From Chitinivibrionales bacterium (GTDB taxonomy: Bacteria > Fibrobacterota > Chitinivibrionia > Chitinivibrionales > WJKA01): a DNA stretch of 64,000 nt. The DNA is taken from positions 1 to 64,000 of the forward strand of contig WJLW01000112.1 of NCBI GenBank assembly GCA_014728295.1. The letters are read 5' to 3'. Positions 1-17,282 of the stretch are shown piece by piece. The notes under the pieces are model-generated. The model saw nothing but the letters and a program-made list of their open reading frames with translations. It made no database searches and was not told the DNA's origin. The position numbers and the translations under genes are program-made. The stretch's first letter is position 1, and each line of letters begins with the position of its first letter.

Positions 1-354
1 CACAACAACACTCAGCAGGGGCATGGCCACGAACTGACCTTTTACTGTTATCACCGCTACGATTATCTGAGTGAACCAACCGAATGCAAATTGTATCTTT
101 CTGAACCGGAAAAATCACGAAAAGAACATGGTTTTGAACTCTGGGCTTATGTGCTTATGCCCAATCATGTCCACTTGGTAATCTGGCCTCATCAGAGCAC
201 TTATGATATTGCGCGCATACACAATGCCGCCGAAGGCCGCATGGCAAAGCAGTACCGTGACCATGTACTTGAAAACGAACCCGATAATTTTGAAAAGTAT
301 CAGGAATTTGACAAAAGCAAAAGTAACTATACAGGTATTAAATTCATTTTGTAG
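1..354 (+). pseudogene. IS200/RAYT-type Y1 (HUH) transposase, 5' end outside window, 3' end degenerate
   Basis: An open frame enters at base 1 and runs to a stop at 352-354; the 5' end lies outside the window. It reads GHELTFYCYHRYDYL near the start and WAYVLMPNHVHLVIWP in the middle. The H-V-H is the metal-binding HUH motif of Y1 transposases, and the layout matches the REP-associated tyrosine transposase class. After the motif the frame continues about 50 residues and ends in SNYTGIKFIL, without the usual RFWQ-G-GYDRN-type C-terminus of this class, so the 3' end is probably truncated or shifted. A tyrosine in KQYRDHV could be the nucleophile, but I cannot confirm it. The next recognisable sequence is an IS66 tail on the other strand, which suggests nested insertion damage. 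Family sure, activity doubtful. Confidence 0.7.
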
Positions 355-645: not shown

Positions 646-1053
646 TTATATAATATCAAAACCCATGATCCTAAAATGTTTATCAAAGGTGAACACTCGA
701 CTGATTTTAAGTTGGGTCATCATTGCAAATGAAATGCAGTCAACAAATGATAATTGCTGGTCATCGTACTTAAGGAACGTGTGCCATGCCTGGTCTATAA
801 TTTCATTGTCAGGAGTTACAATTCCAGTTGCAGCGTCGTTGCGGATAATATCGCCGGCTTCAGTTGCTTTAGAATGTGAGACTCTTCGTAATATGCGAGT
901 AACGGTCTCAGCAAATACATGTGTACTTGTGATAAAACGAGTTTTATTCTTAAGCAATTCTTCAGATTTCGTGACAGCCTGCAGATGGTATTGATCTTTC
1001 CTGTTAAGCAATGCGACATATGCAGCAGTATCAATAAATATGTAATCAGTCAT
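646..1053 (-). CDS. PIN-domain ribonuclease toxin (VapC-like)
   Basis: A 135-residue protein of usual VapC length. The four acidic PIN positions are visible: D in FIDTAAYVALLN near residue 6, E in HVFAETVTR, D in FVDCISFAMM, and D in FTFDKHF at the C-terminus. This is the magnesium-binding active site of PIN endoribonucleases, which as toxins typically cut tRNA or rRNA. I chose the ATG at 1053 (MTDYIFID) because the family begins two or three residues before the first beta strand; the frame stays open to 1095. This start overlaps the end of the upstream antitoxin gene by 8 bases (ATGACTGA), the usual translational coupling of toxin to antitoxin. It probably forms a type II toxin-antitoxin pair with 1046-1255. 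Confidence 0.85.
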   Translation of the reverse strand: MTDYIFIDTAAYVALLNRKDQYHLQAVTKSEELLKNKTRFITSTHVFAETVTRILRRVSHSKATEAGDIIRNDAATGIVTPDNEIIDQAWHTFLKYDDQQLSFVDCISFAMMTQLKISRVFTFDKHFRIMGFDII

Positions 1054-1255
1054 AAATTTCATCATGATTCGAGGAAAGATCCTCTGGTCCCTCAATTATA
1101 CCGATAAGGTCAGCAAGTGAATTTTTTCCTGTATTTTGATTCTTTACTTTATTTCTGAGGTATTCAGCAAAATCGAACACCTCTTGTTGTTTTTCATACG
1201 GCAGTTCTTCTACGGTATGACGGATACGCTCTGGAAGTTCTTGTGGTGCTACCAT
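1046..1255 (-). CDS. DUF2281/VapB-like antitoxin
   Basis: A 69-residue protein starting MVAPQELPERIRHTVEELP and continuing YEKQQEVFDFAEYLR. This matches the DUF2281-type antitoxin pattern (helical LPEE-EV-DF--YLR core). The C-terminal part, with LADLIGIIEGPEDLSSNHDEIYD, is the kind of short tail that such antitoxins insert into the partner PIN domain. AGGA lies nine bases before the ATG. The stop overlaps the toxin start by 8 bases. Antitoxins of this type normally autoregulate their promoter with the toxin; I did not find a clear operator upstream. The nearby IS fragments suggest acquired DNA. Confidence 0.75.
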   Translation of the reverse strand: MVAPQELPERIRHTVEELPYEKQQEVFDFAEYLRNKVKNQNTGKNSLADLIGIIEGPEDLSSNHDEIYD

Positions 1256-6512: not shown

Positions 6513-8093
6513 TTATTTCGTCGTGACGAAGATTTCGTTTGACCACCTGCCTTCGATATTGCCGTGTGCGTTCACGGACTCATGGCGCAGGCGATAGAAG
6601 TAGGTTGTTGCGCTGTCAAGACCGGTATCCGTAAAGTAATTGGTAAACTTTTCCGAAATCGCCGCATGCGGCGCCCGCAAGCTGTTGAATACGCCCGGCG
6701 TGGTCCGGCGGTATATTTTGTAAACCTGGAAGCCGCTATCGAGGCTTTGCGTCCAGACGAGTGTTGCCGATGAGTCCGTTATTGAGTCGGGCGCTGGGTT
6801 CAGCGATACAAATACCGGGAAGTCGGCGACGATGTTGCTCTTCGCCAAATTGCCCGTACTGTTTTTCACGAACACGGCAAACCAGAGCTGCGGCAGGCCG
6901 GCGGTGTCTTCGTAGGCAAAGGTGGTGTCGGATACCTCGTCGAGCAATTCGTCGGTTGTGTCGACAGCGGTGTCGCTGGATACATACATCAAATAGGTAA
7001 CGGCGCCGCGCTCAATGGCTCTGTTCCAGGTCAGAAGCACCGCTTCATTGGTAACGTCGCTTACGTGAAGCCTGACCGGATCCGGGATCCCGTCTTTGGT
7101 GCGGGCATTGACAATCGAGCCGGTCGAGATGTTATTCTTTACATCCTCAACAAACACGGCAAACCGGTACTCGGTATCTCGTTGGAGATTCGAAAAGGTT
7201 AGAGCAGTATCGGATGCTGCGAAAATAAAAAAAGTGCTGGAATCGGCGGTATCTTGTCGAGCAAAGGTGTCGGCCAGGGCGGTGGTGTCAATGGAGATGA
7301 TATACCTGCGAAAATCCGGCGCCGTGCTTTTACGCCACGTGATGGTAATTGACGAATCGGAAAGCCGGTTCGAGTCGAGCTGTGTGTGCACTGTTGTCGG
7401 GATACCGTCGGCTGTTTCGGTGCCGACGACGTTGCTTCCGGCCTGCAGAAGTCCGTTGTTATCGACGGCATAAACCTTGAAATAGTACTGCTGATCGGGC
7501 TGCAGGGAGTTGATAGACATTTGCGTATTTGCAAGCCTGGTACCGGCCGAATCTTTCGAGGAGTCAACCTTTGAGGTGGTATCCATGTAGATGATATAAT
7601 GTCTGAGGCTGATACCGGTAACCGGTTGCCAGTCGATGGCGAGTGATGAATCGGTAATCGAATTCGAATCTATGGGCAGCAGCTCGATATTCTTGTTTTT
7701 AAAGTCTTGCAGAGTCATGGTATCGGCGGTGTTGCTTGGTGAGACCAATCCAGCGGTGTTGCGCACGAAAACTCTGAATGCGTATGGCGTACCGGGATCG
7801 AGGCCGAAGACGACGATTGATGTATCAACGTTGAAAGTGAGCGTGTCGACGGGAATATCGCTAGTGTCGACGTTTTGTGATTGTCCGTTGAGGAGCTTGT
7901 GGTAGACGGTGTAGGAGAGAAAGTCTTCATCGGGAGATTGCGTCCAGCCAAGTGAGGCGCTTGAGTCGGTGACGGCGGTAATGCGGAGGGTGACTGGAGC
8001 CGGCGGCTCTTCGCTGCCGAGCACATCGTAGTCGGCGCAGTGGAGGGCGAGCAGGATTGTTAGTGATAGTACTGTTAAGAGGGGTTTTTGCAT
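6513..8093 (-). CDS. Lipoprotein with five fibronectin type III domains
   Basis: A 526-residue protein. I start it at ATG 8093 (MQKPLLTVLSLTILLALHC) because this gives a perfect lipoprotein signal with Cys at 19, and GGAG lies seven bases upstream; the frame is open further up but holds no signal peptide. Five tandem fibronectin-III units of about 90-100 residues follow, each with the D-S-S/T-L-W core and a Y-F-V-V strand (for example YYFKVYAVDNNG, YRFAVFVEDVKN, YFYRLRHESVNAHG). Ser, Thr and Asp are strikingly abundant. FN3 repeats usually act in adhesion or as spacers. Lying between the secretin and the GspL-like gene, it may anchor or decorate the secretin as a pilotin-like or surface-exposed partner; that is inference. 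Confidence 0.8.
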   Translation of the reverse strand: MQKPLLTVLSLTILLALHCADYDVLGSEEPPAPVTLRITAVTDSSASLGWTQSPDEDFLSYTVYHKLLNGQSQNVDTSDIPVDTLTFNVDTSIVVFGLDPGTPYAFRVFVRNTAGLVSPSNTADTMTLQDFKNKNIELLPIDSNSITDSSLAIDWQPVTGISLRHYIIYMDTTSKVDSSKDSAGTRLANTQMSINSLQPDQQYYFKVYAVDNNGLLQAGSNVVGTETADGIPTTVHTQLDSNRLSDSSITITWRKSTAPDFRRYIISIDTTALADTFARQDTADSSTFFIFAASDTALTFSNLQRDTEYRFAVFVEDVKNNISTGSIVNARTKDGIPDPVRLHVSDVTNEAVLLTWNRAIERGAVTYLMYVSSDTAVDTTDELLDEVSDTTFAYEDTAGLPQLWFAVFVKNSTGNLAKSNIVADFPVFVSLNPAPDSITDSSATLVWTQSLDSGFQVYKIYRRTTPGVFNSLRAPHAAISEKFTNYFTDTGLDSATTYFYRLRHESVNAHGNIEGRWSNEIFVTTK

Positions 8094-8111: not shown

Positions 8112-8258
8112 TAGAAATATTGCGTCCCTCTGGGACGATCTAGTTTCGCTATTGCATATAGTTTTCGTTCTCGCCGGCCCCATCGGGACCACACATTTCA
8201 AAAAGCCTATCAAATATTCATACTTCCCAACGGTCCCATCGGGACCACATATTTCTAC
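8112..8258. repeat. Three REP-like palindromic repeats between lipoprotein and secretin genes
   Basis: Three copies share a TAGAAATAT-like head plus a short hairpin. Copy A (8112-8137, plus strand) is TAGAAATATTGC then GTCCC-TCT-GGGAC. Copies B (8176-8199) and C (8232-8257) are on the minus strand; C reads TAGAAATATGTG then GTCCC-GAT-GGGAC. The spacing A-B-C with A inverted relative to B and C is like bacterial REP/BIME clusters. Copy C begins with GTAG (8255-8258), the tetranucleotide next to many REP hairpins. Its TAG is the stop codon of the secretin gene. Confidence 0.7.
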
Positions 8259-10579
8259 AATCCCCCCTCCGACTCCCCAGGCTTACTTTCCGTTTCTTCC
8301 TTCACCTTTTTGCGCTTCCACGGCCACCGGAATTTCAGCTTTTTCTTTTCATCCTGCTCATCCTGCTGAAGAGATTTCACTTTTCGTCGTTTTTCCCGTT
8401 CATCTCTGCGTTTTTTGCGTTTTTCCCGCCGTTTTTCCAGGCGCTTGCGGTAGCGGTCGGGATCGTTTTTTTCGAGGATGCGCTTGATTTCGGTACCAAC
8501 AAAATCATTTGGTGTGACTTTGCCCTCGTCGCCATAGTAAACATGCGGGGTGAGGAAAATCATCATTTGTGTTTCGTTTTTAGAGACGATTTTGTGGGAA
8601 AAGAGCGTGCCAAGAAGCGGGATGGCGCTTAGAAAAGGTATGCCGGCTCGGTTGACGACATCGGCAGTCTGGCGCTGGCCGCCGAGTACGATTGTTTCGC
8701 CGTTTTTAAGGCGCACCATTGATTCGAGGATGCGGGTGTCGGTGGTTGGCGGCCGATCGAGGTCACCGCCGGTGCGCGGGATTTTGAATTCGGGGCGGAT
8801 TTTGACCATGACGTAGCCTTCGTCCATCACCCAGGGCGTGACTTCGAGGCGGGTGTTGAGCTCGATGCGTTCGAAGCGTTCGTCGGTACCAATGATGTTG
8901 TCCTCGGTGCCGGTTGCGGTGCGGGTTTCTTTACTGAGCTTGTAGTAGCGGGTTTCTCCGATGGTGATGCTGGCGGCGTTGCCGTTTATCGTTGCAATTT
9001 GTGGAGTGGAGTGTACCTTGATAACATCGGCCGTTTCCAGTGCACGAATGGTCGAGCGAAAATTTTTGGGCAGTTTGACGACTTCGTTGATGCCGAGAAA
9101 CTGCATGACTTCTTTGAGCGCACGCAGAGTATTTTGCCGTCCCGGTTTCAATGCCAGTTCGGGCAGAAATGACTCACTGTCCCAGTTGCCGGAGCTGTCG
9201 GATTTGCCCTGAGTAAAAACGGAGATGCCGAATTCCCGGATCTTATTGATGTTAAAGTCCACAACCAGCGCTTCGATGAGCACCTGCGGGATGGGCTTGT
9301 CGAGCTTTTCGATGTACTCCTGGGCCTGAGCAATGACATCGAATGAGCCGATGATGATGATTGCGTTGTGTTCCTTGTCATATTTGATCACGGCAGACTT
9401 TGAAATGTGCGGCGGAAGCATCTTTGAAAATTCGCCCTCATCAGCCATGATATGCTTGAGGCCGATTACCAGCGTGGTTTTTTGCTCACTCATCTCCCGC
9501 GAACCGATGAAGTATATGTCCCGGTCTTTCCAGAAGGTAAACTTTGTATTTTGCAGCAGGAAGCGAAAGACGTGATCAATGGGCTGGTTGGAGAATTTGG
9601 CGGTGATTGTACCGGTTATTTTGTCGTAGATAATGACGTTGATACCGCTCTGGACGGCAATGGTACGAATCGCCAGGTCCAGAGAGGCGTCATCGACTTC
9701 CATGGTGACTATTTTATCGTTGCTTACCGTGATTGACAGTCGCTTGAGTCGTCTGGTTGACGAATGGCCGTCATCTTTGCCACCCCACTCCTGCTCCGAT
9801 ACATAATAGACGCCGTCTGATGCTGACACGTCAAAGCCATTGCTTTGGTAGAGAACTTTGATTGCTTTGGCGGGGCTTAGGTTGGTGAGGCGTGAGGTTA
9901 TCTTTTTGGATGCCTGGCCTTCAACCACAACATTTGTTTGCGTGGAATCGCTGAAGAGGCGGGCGAGTTTGTGCGGCGTCAAATCTTTGATGTCGATGTC
10001 AAGTACGCCGTTTTCGTAATGAAAGACAACCGGCGGTTCGGGCGGCGGGGGAGGAGCCGGTTCTTCGTACTTATAAACTTTGACAATCCCGTTGTCGATC
10101 TTGTAGGCGAATTTGCTGCGTTTACAGATGAAATCAATCGCACTTTTGACCGGCACATCCATCAGGTACAGAGAGATTTTGCCTTGCACATCCGGTTCGA
10201 GATAGATATTGACACCATACTGCATACCCAGGGCGCGCAGGATGTCGCGTATGTCGGTGTTTTTGAAGTCCAGCACCGGGGCTTTAACCGTATCGGAAAG
10301 AGGGATATCTTCGATGGGGTAGAGGTTGGGACCTGGTTCTTTGTCGGGCGCTTTTGGCTGGGGGGGAGATGCCTGCCGGTCATCGACATCGATCACAGGC
10401 TTCTCGATACCCACGATTTCGTCTTCATCAACGACAATTGCCGAATCCTGGGCGAAGATGATTCCTGCAGGGCCTGCTGCAATCATCAGGATATACCAGG
10501 CGAGTCGGTAAATGCTCGGTTGGCCGGCTTGGTGACGTGTCTGCCGAGATGCGTTGCGTACCGGATACAATTCAATCAT
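8255..10579 (-). CDS. Secretin, PilQ/GspD family
   Basis: A 774-residue outer-membrane secretin. N-terminal hydrophobic segment YRLAWYILMIAAGPAGIIFA after a long basic region serves as signal peptide. At least two or three STN/N0-N1-type domains follow (VLDFKNTDIRDILRALGMQYG; ISLYLMDVPVKSAIDFICK; MEVDDASLDLAIRTIAVQSG), then the secretin core with ILESMVRLKNGETIVLGG and the family end motif VPFLSAIPLLGTLFSHK. After the core an unusual tail of about 70 residues is dominated by Lys, Arg and Glu (RLEKRREKRKKRRDEREKRR). GAAGG sits six bases before the ATG. The stop codon is the first TAG of a REP-like repeat. It would form the outer-membrane channel for the pilus or secretion machine of this operon. 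Confidence 0.9.
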   Translation of the reverse strand: MIELYPVRNASRQTRHQAGQPSIYRLAWYILMIAAGPAGIIFAQDSAIVVDEDEIVGIEKPVIDVDDRQASPPQPKAPDKEPGPNLYPIEDIPLSDTVKAPVLDFKNTDIRDILRALGMQYGVNIYLEPDVQGKISLYLMDVPVKSAIDFICKRSKFAYKIDNGIVKVYKYEEPAPPPPPEPPVVFHYENGVLDIDIKDLTPHKLARLFSDSTQTNVVVEGQASKKITSRLTNLSPAKAIKVLYQSNGFDVSASDGVYYVSEQEWGGKDDGHSSTRRLKRLSITVSNDKIVTMEVDDASLDLAIRTIAVQSGINVIIYDKITGTITAKFSNQPIDHVFRFLLQNTKFTFWKDRDIYFIGSREMSEQKTTLVIGLKHIMADEGEFSKMLPPHISKSAVIKYDKEHNAIIIIGSFDVIAQAQEYIEKLDKPIPQVLIEALVVDFNINKIREFGISVFTQGKSDSSGNWDSESFLPELALKPGRQNTLRALKEVMQFLGINEVVKLPKNFRSTIRALETADVIKVHSTPQIATINGNAASITIGETRYYKLSKETRTATGTEDNIIGTDERFERIELNTRLEVTPWVMDEGYVMVKIRPEFKIPRTGGDLDRPPTTDTRILESMVRLKNGETIVLGGQRQTADVVNRAGIPFLSAIPLLGTLFSHKIVSKNETQMMIFLTPHVYYGDEGKVTPNDFVGTEIKRILEKNDPDRYRKRLEKRREKRKKRRDEREKRRKVKSLQQDEQDEKKKLKFRWPWKRKKVKEETESKPGESEGGL

Positions 10580-15800: not shown

Positions 15801-17282
15801 TCGACGGCGCAGTTCAAGGTGCTTCCGGGCGAAGCCGACTCGATTGTGCTGGTTGACGCCGGCGGCAATCCGCCTTCGGGTACCATCATCATGCCGCCTT
15901 CACCGGATGCGCTGCTCAGCTCGGAGTTGTTTGACAGATACGGCAATCCGGTTACCTGTCAAACCGGGCTGACTATCTGGCAGGCAACTGGTAGCCTGCC
16001 GGCCGTATTCGACAGTACCACCTGCGAGATTTTTTACCGCAAACCGGCGAATCTGACCGATACGCTCACCGGCGATCTGGTTGTAAAAATCGAGGCCCGA
16101 CCGAACAGACGTGACAGTGTTGCGGTGCAGCTTATACCACCGCAGGCACAAATTCTTTCGATGGTGACCCGGGATATCTCCGGCAACGGCTACCTGGATC
16201 GCATTGAAGTGACCTACGATAAAGCCGTGAGCCTGGCGGATGACTACAAGCCCGCAGACAACATCGCCATCACCGCAAAACCGCTTGGCAGAACAAGTTA
16301 CGATTTTGTGGCCGACAGTGTAAGCCTTTCTGTGCAGAATAGGAAACTGACCATCTACCTGCAGGAGAATAAAACGGAAAAGCCTCAGACGGACTGGTTG
16401 CCCGAGTTGAGCATTACCGGTATTATCGGTGCCGGCGACGGGGGCGGGCGTGCTCGGGACGGCGCCGGACCGGTTATCTGGTCGGCGGTGGCGGTGAAGC
16501 GCACGGCAACCGGTCCCGACGAACGCGTGTATTACGAAATAACGGCAACCATATCCGAAAAACTGGAGGAGCGCCTCAGCAGCCGGCACGAACCGAAACT
16601 CGTGTACTACCTCTACCGCAAAGACGGGGATGGCTGGGATACCTTGACGAACTACCTTGACGGCGACGATGTCATTTTCCTCAGCTCGAATGATGACCAG
16701 ATTGCGCGTTTTCAGATTGACAATGGAAATGAAGTCACGCCCAACGAATGGATAAATTTCCGAACCGATGTATCGCCGATGCATGTCAAAGACCGGGTCA
16801 ATCTGCCGCCGAATGACAACAACCACAAAGTGCGCATCGTTGTGGTGATTCCCGAATCCATTGCCGAAGCCGGACCCAGCCCGTTTGCCCCGACCAGCCG
16901 CTTTCATGAAATCGAACTCAGCTCGCTGCCGCCGCTTGAGGCCGCCAGACGGGCACGTGATTTCAACGGGACGGCCCTGGTTGTGCGACTCGATTCGCTC
17001 GATGCTCCCCCCTCAACCGAAAAGATTACCGGGCGGATGCGGGTATTTGACATTGCCGGCAATATCGTAGCCCAACGCCATACCGATGACGATCTGTTAC
17101 TGGATGAATTCAAAAACAAAGAAACCAGTGTCGTGCAACTGGGCTTTTACTGGAACGGCCTCAACGACAGCAAGATGAAGGCTGCGCCGGGAATCTACCT
17201 GATCACCCTCGATCTGGATATCGACAAGGGCAGCGACAACAAGCTCGTTTCTTTTAGAAAAGAGGTCGGCGTCATGCGATAA
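12807..17282 (+). CDS. Giant secreted protein with von Willebrand factor A domain
   Basis: A 1491-residue exported protein. Signal peptide about residues 1-22, ending NGINA before QDS. A VWA domain follows with the metal-binding DLSGSM near residue 89, then IIFISDGEATGG later in the domain. The middle is a chain of Ig-like or invasin-like beta sandwiches rich in Asp, Thr and Ser. A conserved block (ITRDISGNGYLDRIEVTYDK-like, near 1120) precedes a FlgD-type C-terminal Ig domain (MRVFDIAGNIVAQ, FYWNGLNDSKMKAAPGIYL) and the end RKEVGVMR. From about residue 800 it is clearly paralogous to the next gene (shared VPGQYCYPD / VPGTYCYYPD, PGEADSIVL / PGDVDSIVL). GGGG lies before the ATG. Likely a surface or matrix adhesin; substrate unknown. 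Confidence 0.85.
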   Translation: MNSFLLKAVITGIVLFSNGINAQDSICTYLWNACDVDTCINKSNIIQESGSGVPIKVPQNATKIAKDGLNLCLDVIELDQPLDVVFVVDLSGSMTPNRATQSGVLCSGNSNTTSSNFTVDPYQYSTLEVPITTSNCDWAGDPYGQRAIALRAGIDRFYQSGAATQSTAGYIGFNSNDNNGLPPGHQFQPVKLTSANRAHFDVAVDTLERYVRNRGGGGTWMLEALEQAKSWFDDNSLTPNNRQAIIFISDGEATGGHGPDPMFNELRNDSIPVYGIFLGIPETNNDLRNLSQSTNGEFAFISPDSTQKLSALVDDIIGNISKGFVARTISAKNTTTGQSPAQSVDITPSASGEIFNVVLDSTIALQPGQNRITIAATFRSPLGPGDTTFQFSFIIDATGSSQQCDSLVSCVPASKLEILNRSGLAVDSLTQNENRYMVRLTTYDTSLVVAYVDVTTAQKGDSETNLQLSTRRFATDNSGNVYAVLEGVFFFSASNTGSATPDNFTTESNLTDVITAVWTHPRDSRDDATAAMDVKSLPNSIEIYDGTGDPSGVAKYADYPSVVTAKAGENLPLVAKVFADQTWFGSYENAPLNENIDWRFIDVATGNVNDDAIGDLTATSGHDISFYPKRARESVDIVVTLTSGGVSELHDTIRVDIIPGDPHHLMIEATSDSSRINLYDDDPLALVEIDPNSTSQTVYAVLRDKEGNFISASNPNDWGSTAASVATVAAGNQTIGEGTISKGVDDSGSTQVWAQNQTLDFTDTVDVVVRLYTIDSLRIVANPSSTSEMNSLTVTTNDDTTIYVQGKRSDNGQWITVVADWSLNPVVSTDPPPGRGNSWKFSPNDTGGGHIVVSRTGAASDSMPFTFNPGFPTQVDMRIITPGLDSIYAGDTITAVVTIRNKNGVMPGQYCYPDQTNQQAIYQEVLGQGVANKRPLAIVNGQTKDLNRHSSETIKHDQCFTNGVDTVQFVLYYASPNDNTLNRLHVRLPNDNSATLEASTAQFKVLPGEADSIVLVDAGGNPPSGTIIMPPSPDALLSSELFDRYGNPVTCQTGLTIWQATGSLPAVFDSTTCEIFYRKPANLTDTLTGDLVVKIEARPNRRDSVAVQLIPPQAQILSMVTRDISGNGYLDRIEVTYDKAVSLADDYKPADNIAITAKPLGRTSYDFVADSVSLSVQNRKLTIYLQENKTEKPQTDWLPELSITGIIGAGDGGGRARDGAGPVIWSAVAVKRTATGPDERVYYEITATISEKLEERLSSRHEPKLVYYLYRKDGDGWDTLTNYLDGDDVIFLSSNDDQIARFQIDNGNEVTPNEWINFRTDVSPMHVKDRVNLPPNDNNHKVRIVVVIPESIAEAGPSPFAPTSRFHEIELSSLPPLEAARRARDFNGTALVVRLDSLDAPPSTEKITGRMRVFDIAGNIVAQRHTDDDLLLDEFKNKETSVVQLGFYWNGLNDSKMKAAPGIYLITLDLDIDKGSDNKLVSFRKEVGVMR

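Follow-up and report, generated by a model that had tools for sequence, protein, structure and literature searches.

Introduction

Short palindromic repeats that are associated with bacterial transposases have been described in several forms. GTAG REPs are defined by a conserved GTAG (or GTGG) tetranucleotide located 0-2 nt from the foot of the stem (PMC6006769), and the ends of these repeats frequently donate stop codons to flanking ORFs (PMC3733652). TIRYTs and the class 3 TnpA-Y1 systems have been described as lying between IS and REPtrons (PMC3733652, PMC6006769). In E. coli, REPs located no more than 15 nt from a stop codon are reported to lower translation, according to the portion of PMC12306157 that cites Liang, Rudd and Deutscher 2015.

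Here we analyze a group of hairpins in a pilus operon. The window, by which we mean the whole stretch of 64,000 nucleotides that was analyzed, comes from a genome (G000; 134 contigs, 5.29 Mb, 98.8% complete, 6.4% contamination) whose genus has no other representative in the set of genomes searched.

Hairpin units between the secretin and lipoprotein genes

A gap of 161 nt separates the secretin gene from the lipoprotein gene, and most of it (8112-8257, 146 bp) consists of hairpin units:

6513..8093, minus strand: fibronectin-type-III lipoprotein gene (PF00041), downstream of the secretin gene in the operon; its likely start is the ATG at 8093-8091, preceded by GGAG
8112-8136, plus strand: copy A, TAGAAATATTGCGTCCCTCTGGGAC; box TAGAAATAT, TGC and hairpin GTCCC-TCT-GGGAC; exact pattern match, covariance model 35.9 bits
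about 8177..8199, minus strand: copy B, degenerate; box TTTGAAATGTG and hairpin GTCCC-GAT-GGGGC
8257-8233, minus strand: copy C, TAGAAATATGTGGTCCCGATGGGAC; box TAGAAATAT, GTG and hairpin GTCCC-GAT-GGGAC, 6 bp with the outer G-C; exact pattern match, covariance model 38.7 bits
8255..10579, minus strand: secretin gene, GspD/PilQ-like (PF00263, 127.5 bits)

The original prediction placed three copies of the element, in both orientations, between these two genes. The site and the orientations hold. Only two of the copies are exact; the third, copy B, is degenerate, with one mismatch in its stem (GTCCC/GGGGC) and a score of 27.2 bits (E 0.012, 124 kb searched) in a covariance model whose rows are 33 family units, copy B among them. 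Dinucleotide shuffling of the window yielded neither copy A nor copy C in any of 100 trials. Along the minus strand, from which the operon is read, the secretin stop and copy C are followed 56 nt later by copy B and then by copy A in reverse, which ends 18 nt ahead of the lipoprotein ATG. B and C form a 53-nt direct repeat (74% identity, 56-nt spacing), and A is inverted relative to both (A-C inverted repeat, 80% over 25 nt). The element has no known RNA family in Rfam up to an E-value of 1, its pattern is unmatched in IMG/VR so that viral carriage is not supported, and a literature search with the exact core GTCCCTACGGGAC was without result.

The TAG of copy C had been predicted to be the stop codon of the secretin, and both the ORF at 8255-10579 (-) and the exact match of copy C confirm this. 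On the minus strand the gene ends with ...GGG GGA TTG TAG (context GTAGAAATAT), in which the TAG (8257-8255) constitutes the first three bases of copy C and TTG is the preceding codon. The further suggestion that the repeat may have set the secretin C-terminus does not survive comparison with relatives. Orthologs of the secretin at 56-67% identity are found in the same order, and in eight orthologs the tail past the conserved QMMIFLTP motif is charged and variable, with a length of 51-158 residues from the motif. The tails most similar to that of the host belong to G012 (stop TGA) and G007 (stop TAG), both of which are without the repeat. Counting residues by eye, the secretin ends 19-20 residues past a shared PW motif in G012 and G007 and 20 residues past it in the host, that is, within about one residue of the same position. 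Because the secretins of repeat-free relatives end nearly alike, the contribution of the repeat does not exceed the stop and one or two final residues. The repeat may thus have supplied the stop, but it did not noticeably alter the length of the secretin. Donation of stop codons by REPs is already published, and one hairpin that carries a stop is ordinary for such repeats. Among 54 family copies, the secretin is the only credible case of a box serving as a stop; a second candidate, at L088, was rejected because its frame is of low complexity and probably spurious.

Distribution of the hairpin family

Members of the family share the consensus TTTTCTAKAAATAT-N3-GTCCC-TAC-GGGAC. The spacer is 3 nt long in 55 of 57 copies, and the window copies fit both this consensus and the fixed spacing between box and stem. 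The box ends 3 nt from the stem, which places its TAG about 9 nt from the stem. Copy C does start with the letters GTAG, as had been pointed out, but this is incidental: the base preceding TAK is G in only 3 of 55 family copies (C in 43). A scan for the box and hairpin in 84,980 species genomes returned 17 stretches, all of them in Bacteroidota. With a looser pattern, 10 of 168 genomes in the window's own phylum had matches, of which two or three are single matches that may be due to chance. By the covariance model, the numbers of units per genome are 48 in G037, 11 in G026, 10 in G009, 9 in G025 and 8 in G029; these counts take in E-values up to 1, and weak single matches among them are uncertain.

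The 5.29 Mb host genome has no further copies by the strict pattern, by blastn with the 171-bp stretch or by the covariance model. In the genome-wide model search the window copies themselves have modest E-values (0.004, 0.013 and 0.5), and these copies are part of the model. Similarly, GTCCC-N(2-5)-GGGAC is not enriched in the host genome (8 places versus 20 for a reversed control). As the genome holds the window copies only, a dispersed REP family in the host is ruled out. The genome-wide count that was proposed with the original prediction thus finds the element only here in the host, an outcome that the prediction had itself named as counting against it.

An IS200-type transposase of relatives is flanked by the same hairpins

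The hairpins can be linked to an enzyme in other genomes. In G037, a relative in the same order, contig C174 encodes an intact 153-aa TnpA (IS200/IS605 equivalog, 63 bits, cut-off 55) with two hairpins on each side, about 50 nt apart and with their boxes towards the gene. In Bacteroidota, TnpA proteins with the same hairpins are 71% (L029) and 55-56% (L024 and L033) identical to the G037 kind, and broken tnpA remnants lie between or beside the same hairpins at L021, L027 and L034. Two hairpins per side are found at L103 and L034. The original description of the hairpins as REP/MITE-like and transposase-associated is therefore borne out, since the same hairpins flank an IS200-type TnpA in relatives. 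In several G037 copies the left hairpins are joined directly to the start region of tnpA, and a piece of the tnpA 3' end is retained in the copy that follows the secretin gene of G037 (both matches read by eye). As read from these matches, the G037 copies are internally deleted derivatives; L034 was likewise counted as an internally deleted copy that keeps both ends. The host genome has no TnpA of the G037 kind.

Broken tnpA copies of the family are also present in G026 (C77, C81 and C4) and at L034 (5983-6190), a sign that the IS has actively decayed in the past, both in sister genomes and in Bacteroidota.

We propose that the window element is very probably an orphaned and decayed relic of IS200-type ends, or of internally deleted MITE/REP-like derivatives, and that it is most likely tolerated and near-neutral. 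Intact members have, on either side of a HUH/Y1 TnpA of ~150 aa, two CTAKAAATAT-N3-GTCCC-N3-GGGAC units spaced by about 50 nt, and the source IS would be a tnpA-only member of the IS200/IS605 family. What the window keeps would then be C and B, a pair resembling a right end, and after them A, a single unit resembling a left end. The three lie between the coding sequence of the secretin and the Shine-Dalgarno motif of the lipoprotein gene, and the TAG of the box would have replaced or coincided with the former secretin stop, with the protein length essentially unchanged. The window copies have diverged, B being degenerate, and they retain nothing of tnpA. The window copy lacks a complete left and right end: it has the C-B pair and a single inverted A, with boxes outward. 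For this reason we call it a relic and not an intact MITE. Because the boxes point outward in C-B-A versus inward in the intact element, the arrangement needs two copies, a rearrangement or an end-to-end junction. We infer the insertion history, the neutrality and any effect on expression; near-neutral carriage, with neutrality assumed, is the most likely state of the element.

In the same phylum, many related TnpA genes are flanked by two or more different hairpins that alternate (G011:C53, L147; G004:C33, L144; G016, L142; G020, L146; G043, L148; and others), for instance GCCCCTTCGGGGC and CATAGGGCTATACCCTATG in G011. We note in passing that these loci look like a group of REPtron-like systems in which every TnpA has a hairpin pair of its own.

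Possible effect on expression

The same lipoprotein gene also comes after the secretin in G027, G003, G007, G012 and G009. Among relatives in which this gene is recognizable, the gap between the two genes is about 70 nt or less in G012, G007, G003 and G027 and about 205 nt in G009, compared to 161 nt in the host. In the host, the 6-bp stem of copy C begins 8 nt past the secretin stop. When the RNA of the gap is folded, C and A can pair with each other in an extended stem that takes in the stop codon (-47.4 kcal/mol), and this fold beats all of 200 shuffles (z -3.2). With flanks added, the best fold differs in detail (z -2.4), and the C/A stem structure is therefore tentative. Taken singly, the hairpins are of moderate strength (-8.7 to -10.6 kcal/mol). 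If the relic acts in the manner reported for REPs, the C hairpin may delay termination or trigger cleavage of the mRNA between the two genes, and pairing of A with C may give the long stem that contains the secretin stop. An effect on expression within the operon, as the original prediction suggested, is plausible, and it would be a modest one on secretin or lipoprotein levels.

A stronger version of this idea is that the hairpins, whatever their origin, have been selected as a regulator of secretin/lipoprotein output, either through translation control at the stop codon or through mRNA processing in the gap. The position of the copy C stem, inside the 15-nt limit that the cited portion of PMC12306157 gives for E. 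coli REPs, and the performance of the gap fold against shuffles are consistent with such a role, as is the presence of family copies in the same operon in G037 and G009. However, we consider selection unlikely, given that copy B is decayed, that most orthologous operons have a hairpin-free gap and that the predicted fold shifts once flanks are added.

Recurrence in the pilus operon

In G037, a family copy lies behind the secretin (C137, about 16610-16830; L133, L039), with its first hairpin some 100 nt past the stop, and the gene that follows is PilM-like, not a lipoprotein gene. In G009, a copy separates a PilC-like gene from the one after it in the same pilus operon (C276, about 7009; L155).

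G037 and G009 belong to two other genera than the host, and because their copies differ from those of the host in content and position, they look like separate insertions. Together with the host, these are all three of the genomes found to have both an orthologous secretin and the family, and each has a copy in the pilus operon. A rough post hoc estimate, calculated by hand, puts the chance of a hit in this operon of about 11 kb at about 4% for G037 (about 20 loci) and 3% for G009 (9 loci). We regard the recurrence as suggestive only. Since the copies of all three genomes are in the operon at different places, repeated insertion may tune secretin or pilus expression, but on these three genomes it is a long shot that, within this order, the family enters and stays in the type IV pilus operon above chance.

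The RAYT fragment and other explanations

A second transposase-related feature is located at the window start:

1..354, plus strand: truncated RAYT (HUH/Y1) fragment; PF01797 24.9 bits (cut-off 23), NF047646 41 bits (cut-off 80)

The truncated HUH/Y1 transposase of the original prediction is thus real by the PF01797 match. Window base 1 is also the first base of contig C83, so the contig end truncates the fragment on its 5' side; on the 3' side, relative to a paralog on contig C41, the part after DKSK is missing. This paralog (L066, about 2035-2790 of a 3.6-kb contig) is nearly full-length (NF047646 78.7 bits, cut-off 80), and the repeats around it gave no clear flanking REP hairpin. Next to the fragment are a gene for a PIN-domain protein (646-1095, minus strand; PF01850, 53 bits) and, upstream of that gene, a short frame (about 1055-1255, minus strand); the pair looks like a VapBC-type toxin-antitoxin. 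An occurrence of TAGAAATAT at 416, behind the fragment, was discarded as a bare 9-mer without a hairpin.

Having a RAYT fragment 8 kb away, hairpins in both orientations and a copy C that begins with GTAG like the GTAG REPs, the locus invites the reading that the hairpins are true RAYT-type REP/BIME elements mobilized by the RAYT of which the fragment remains. This reading is largely refuted, and we find it very improbable. The host genome is without another copy, and a covariance model search placed no hairpin of the family near any host Y1 transposase locus, the C41 paralog included; the search for an intact RAYT flanked by the same hairpin, which had been proposed as a check, accordingly found none at these loci. 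Only 3 of 55 copies have the GTAG, which is 9 nt away from the stem instead of at its foot. Lastly, the hairpins flank a different enzyme, the TnpA of G037 and Bacteroidota, and the similarity of the fragment to this cognate TnpA is not significant (17 bits). On these grounds we rejected the RAYT as the enzyme of the hairpins.

Least credible of all is the view that the operon itself has these hairpins as native intrinsic terminators or attenuators. A consensus scan gives terminator-like matches at A and C, but on the transcribed (-) strand only A is listed, and it is followed by CAATATTTCT and not by a U-run. Transcription termination is therefore unlikely, and the idea was rejected. Such hairpins are absent from most orthologous gaps, and the sequence match to transposon ends is specific.

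Comparison with known systems

As a whole, the case of a decayed relic of IS200-type ends is an ordinary one. It illustrates that a small transposon remnant can lie precisely between two genes of an operon, with the stop codon of the upstream gene inside it, and do no visible harm, and it cautions that the nearest transposase fragment need not belong to a repeat. In addition, a hairpin family of Bacteroidota is now tied to a named enzyme class and is present in a second phylum.

The E. coli REPs near stop codons, as described in the cited portion of PMC12306157, are comparable in that a hairpin lies 8 nt past the stop of the upstream operon gene, although the window repeat is of another family and in another bacterium. 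Like GTAG REPs and the BIMEs/REPINs that go with a RAYT (TnpA-REP), the family consists of short intergenic GC hairpins in direct and inverted copies, and a repeat end can supply the TAG stop to a flanking ORF, as reported for GTAG REPs (PMC3733652). Unlike them, it does not have a high copy number in the host, its enzyme is an IS200-type TnpA and not a RAYT, and there is no conserved GTAG at the stem foot (G in 3 of 55 copies). TIRYTs and the class 3 TnpA-Y1 systems, to which we liken the family by description and not by a tree, similarly comprise Y1 genes flanked by palindromic repeats that are also found alone. The closest match is the IS200 group (IS200/IS605) with its MITE-like derivatives. 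The family differs from this group in having two hairpins per end and an AT-rich box; its transposition is only putative, and the window copy is decayed and without tnpA. In common with the group it has a single short HUH/Y1 TnpA with subterminal hairpins to either side and, as in the MITE-like derivatives, internally deleted copies in which the ends are kept.
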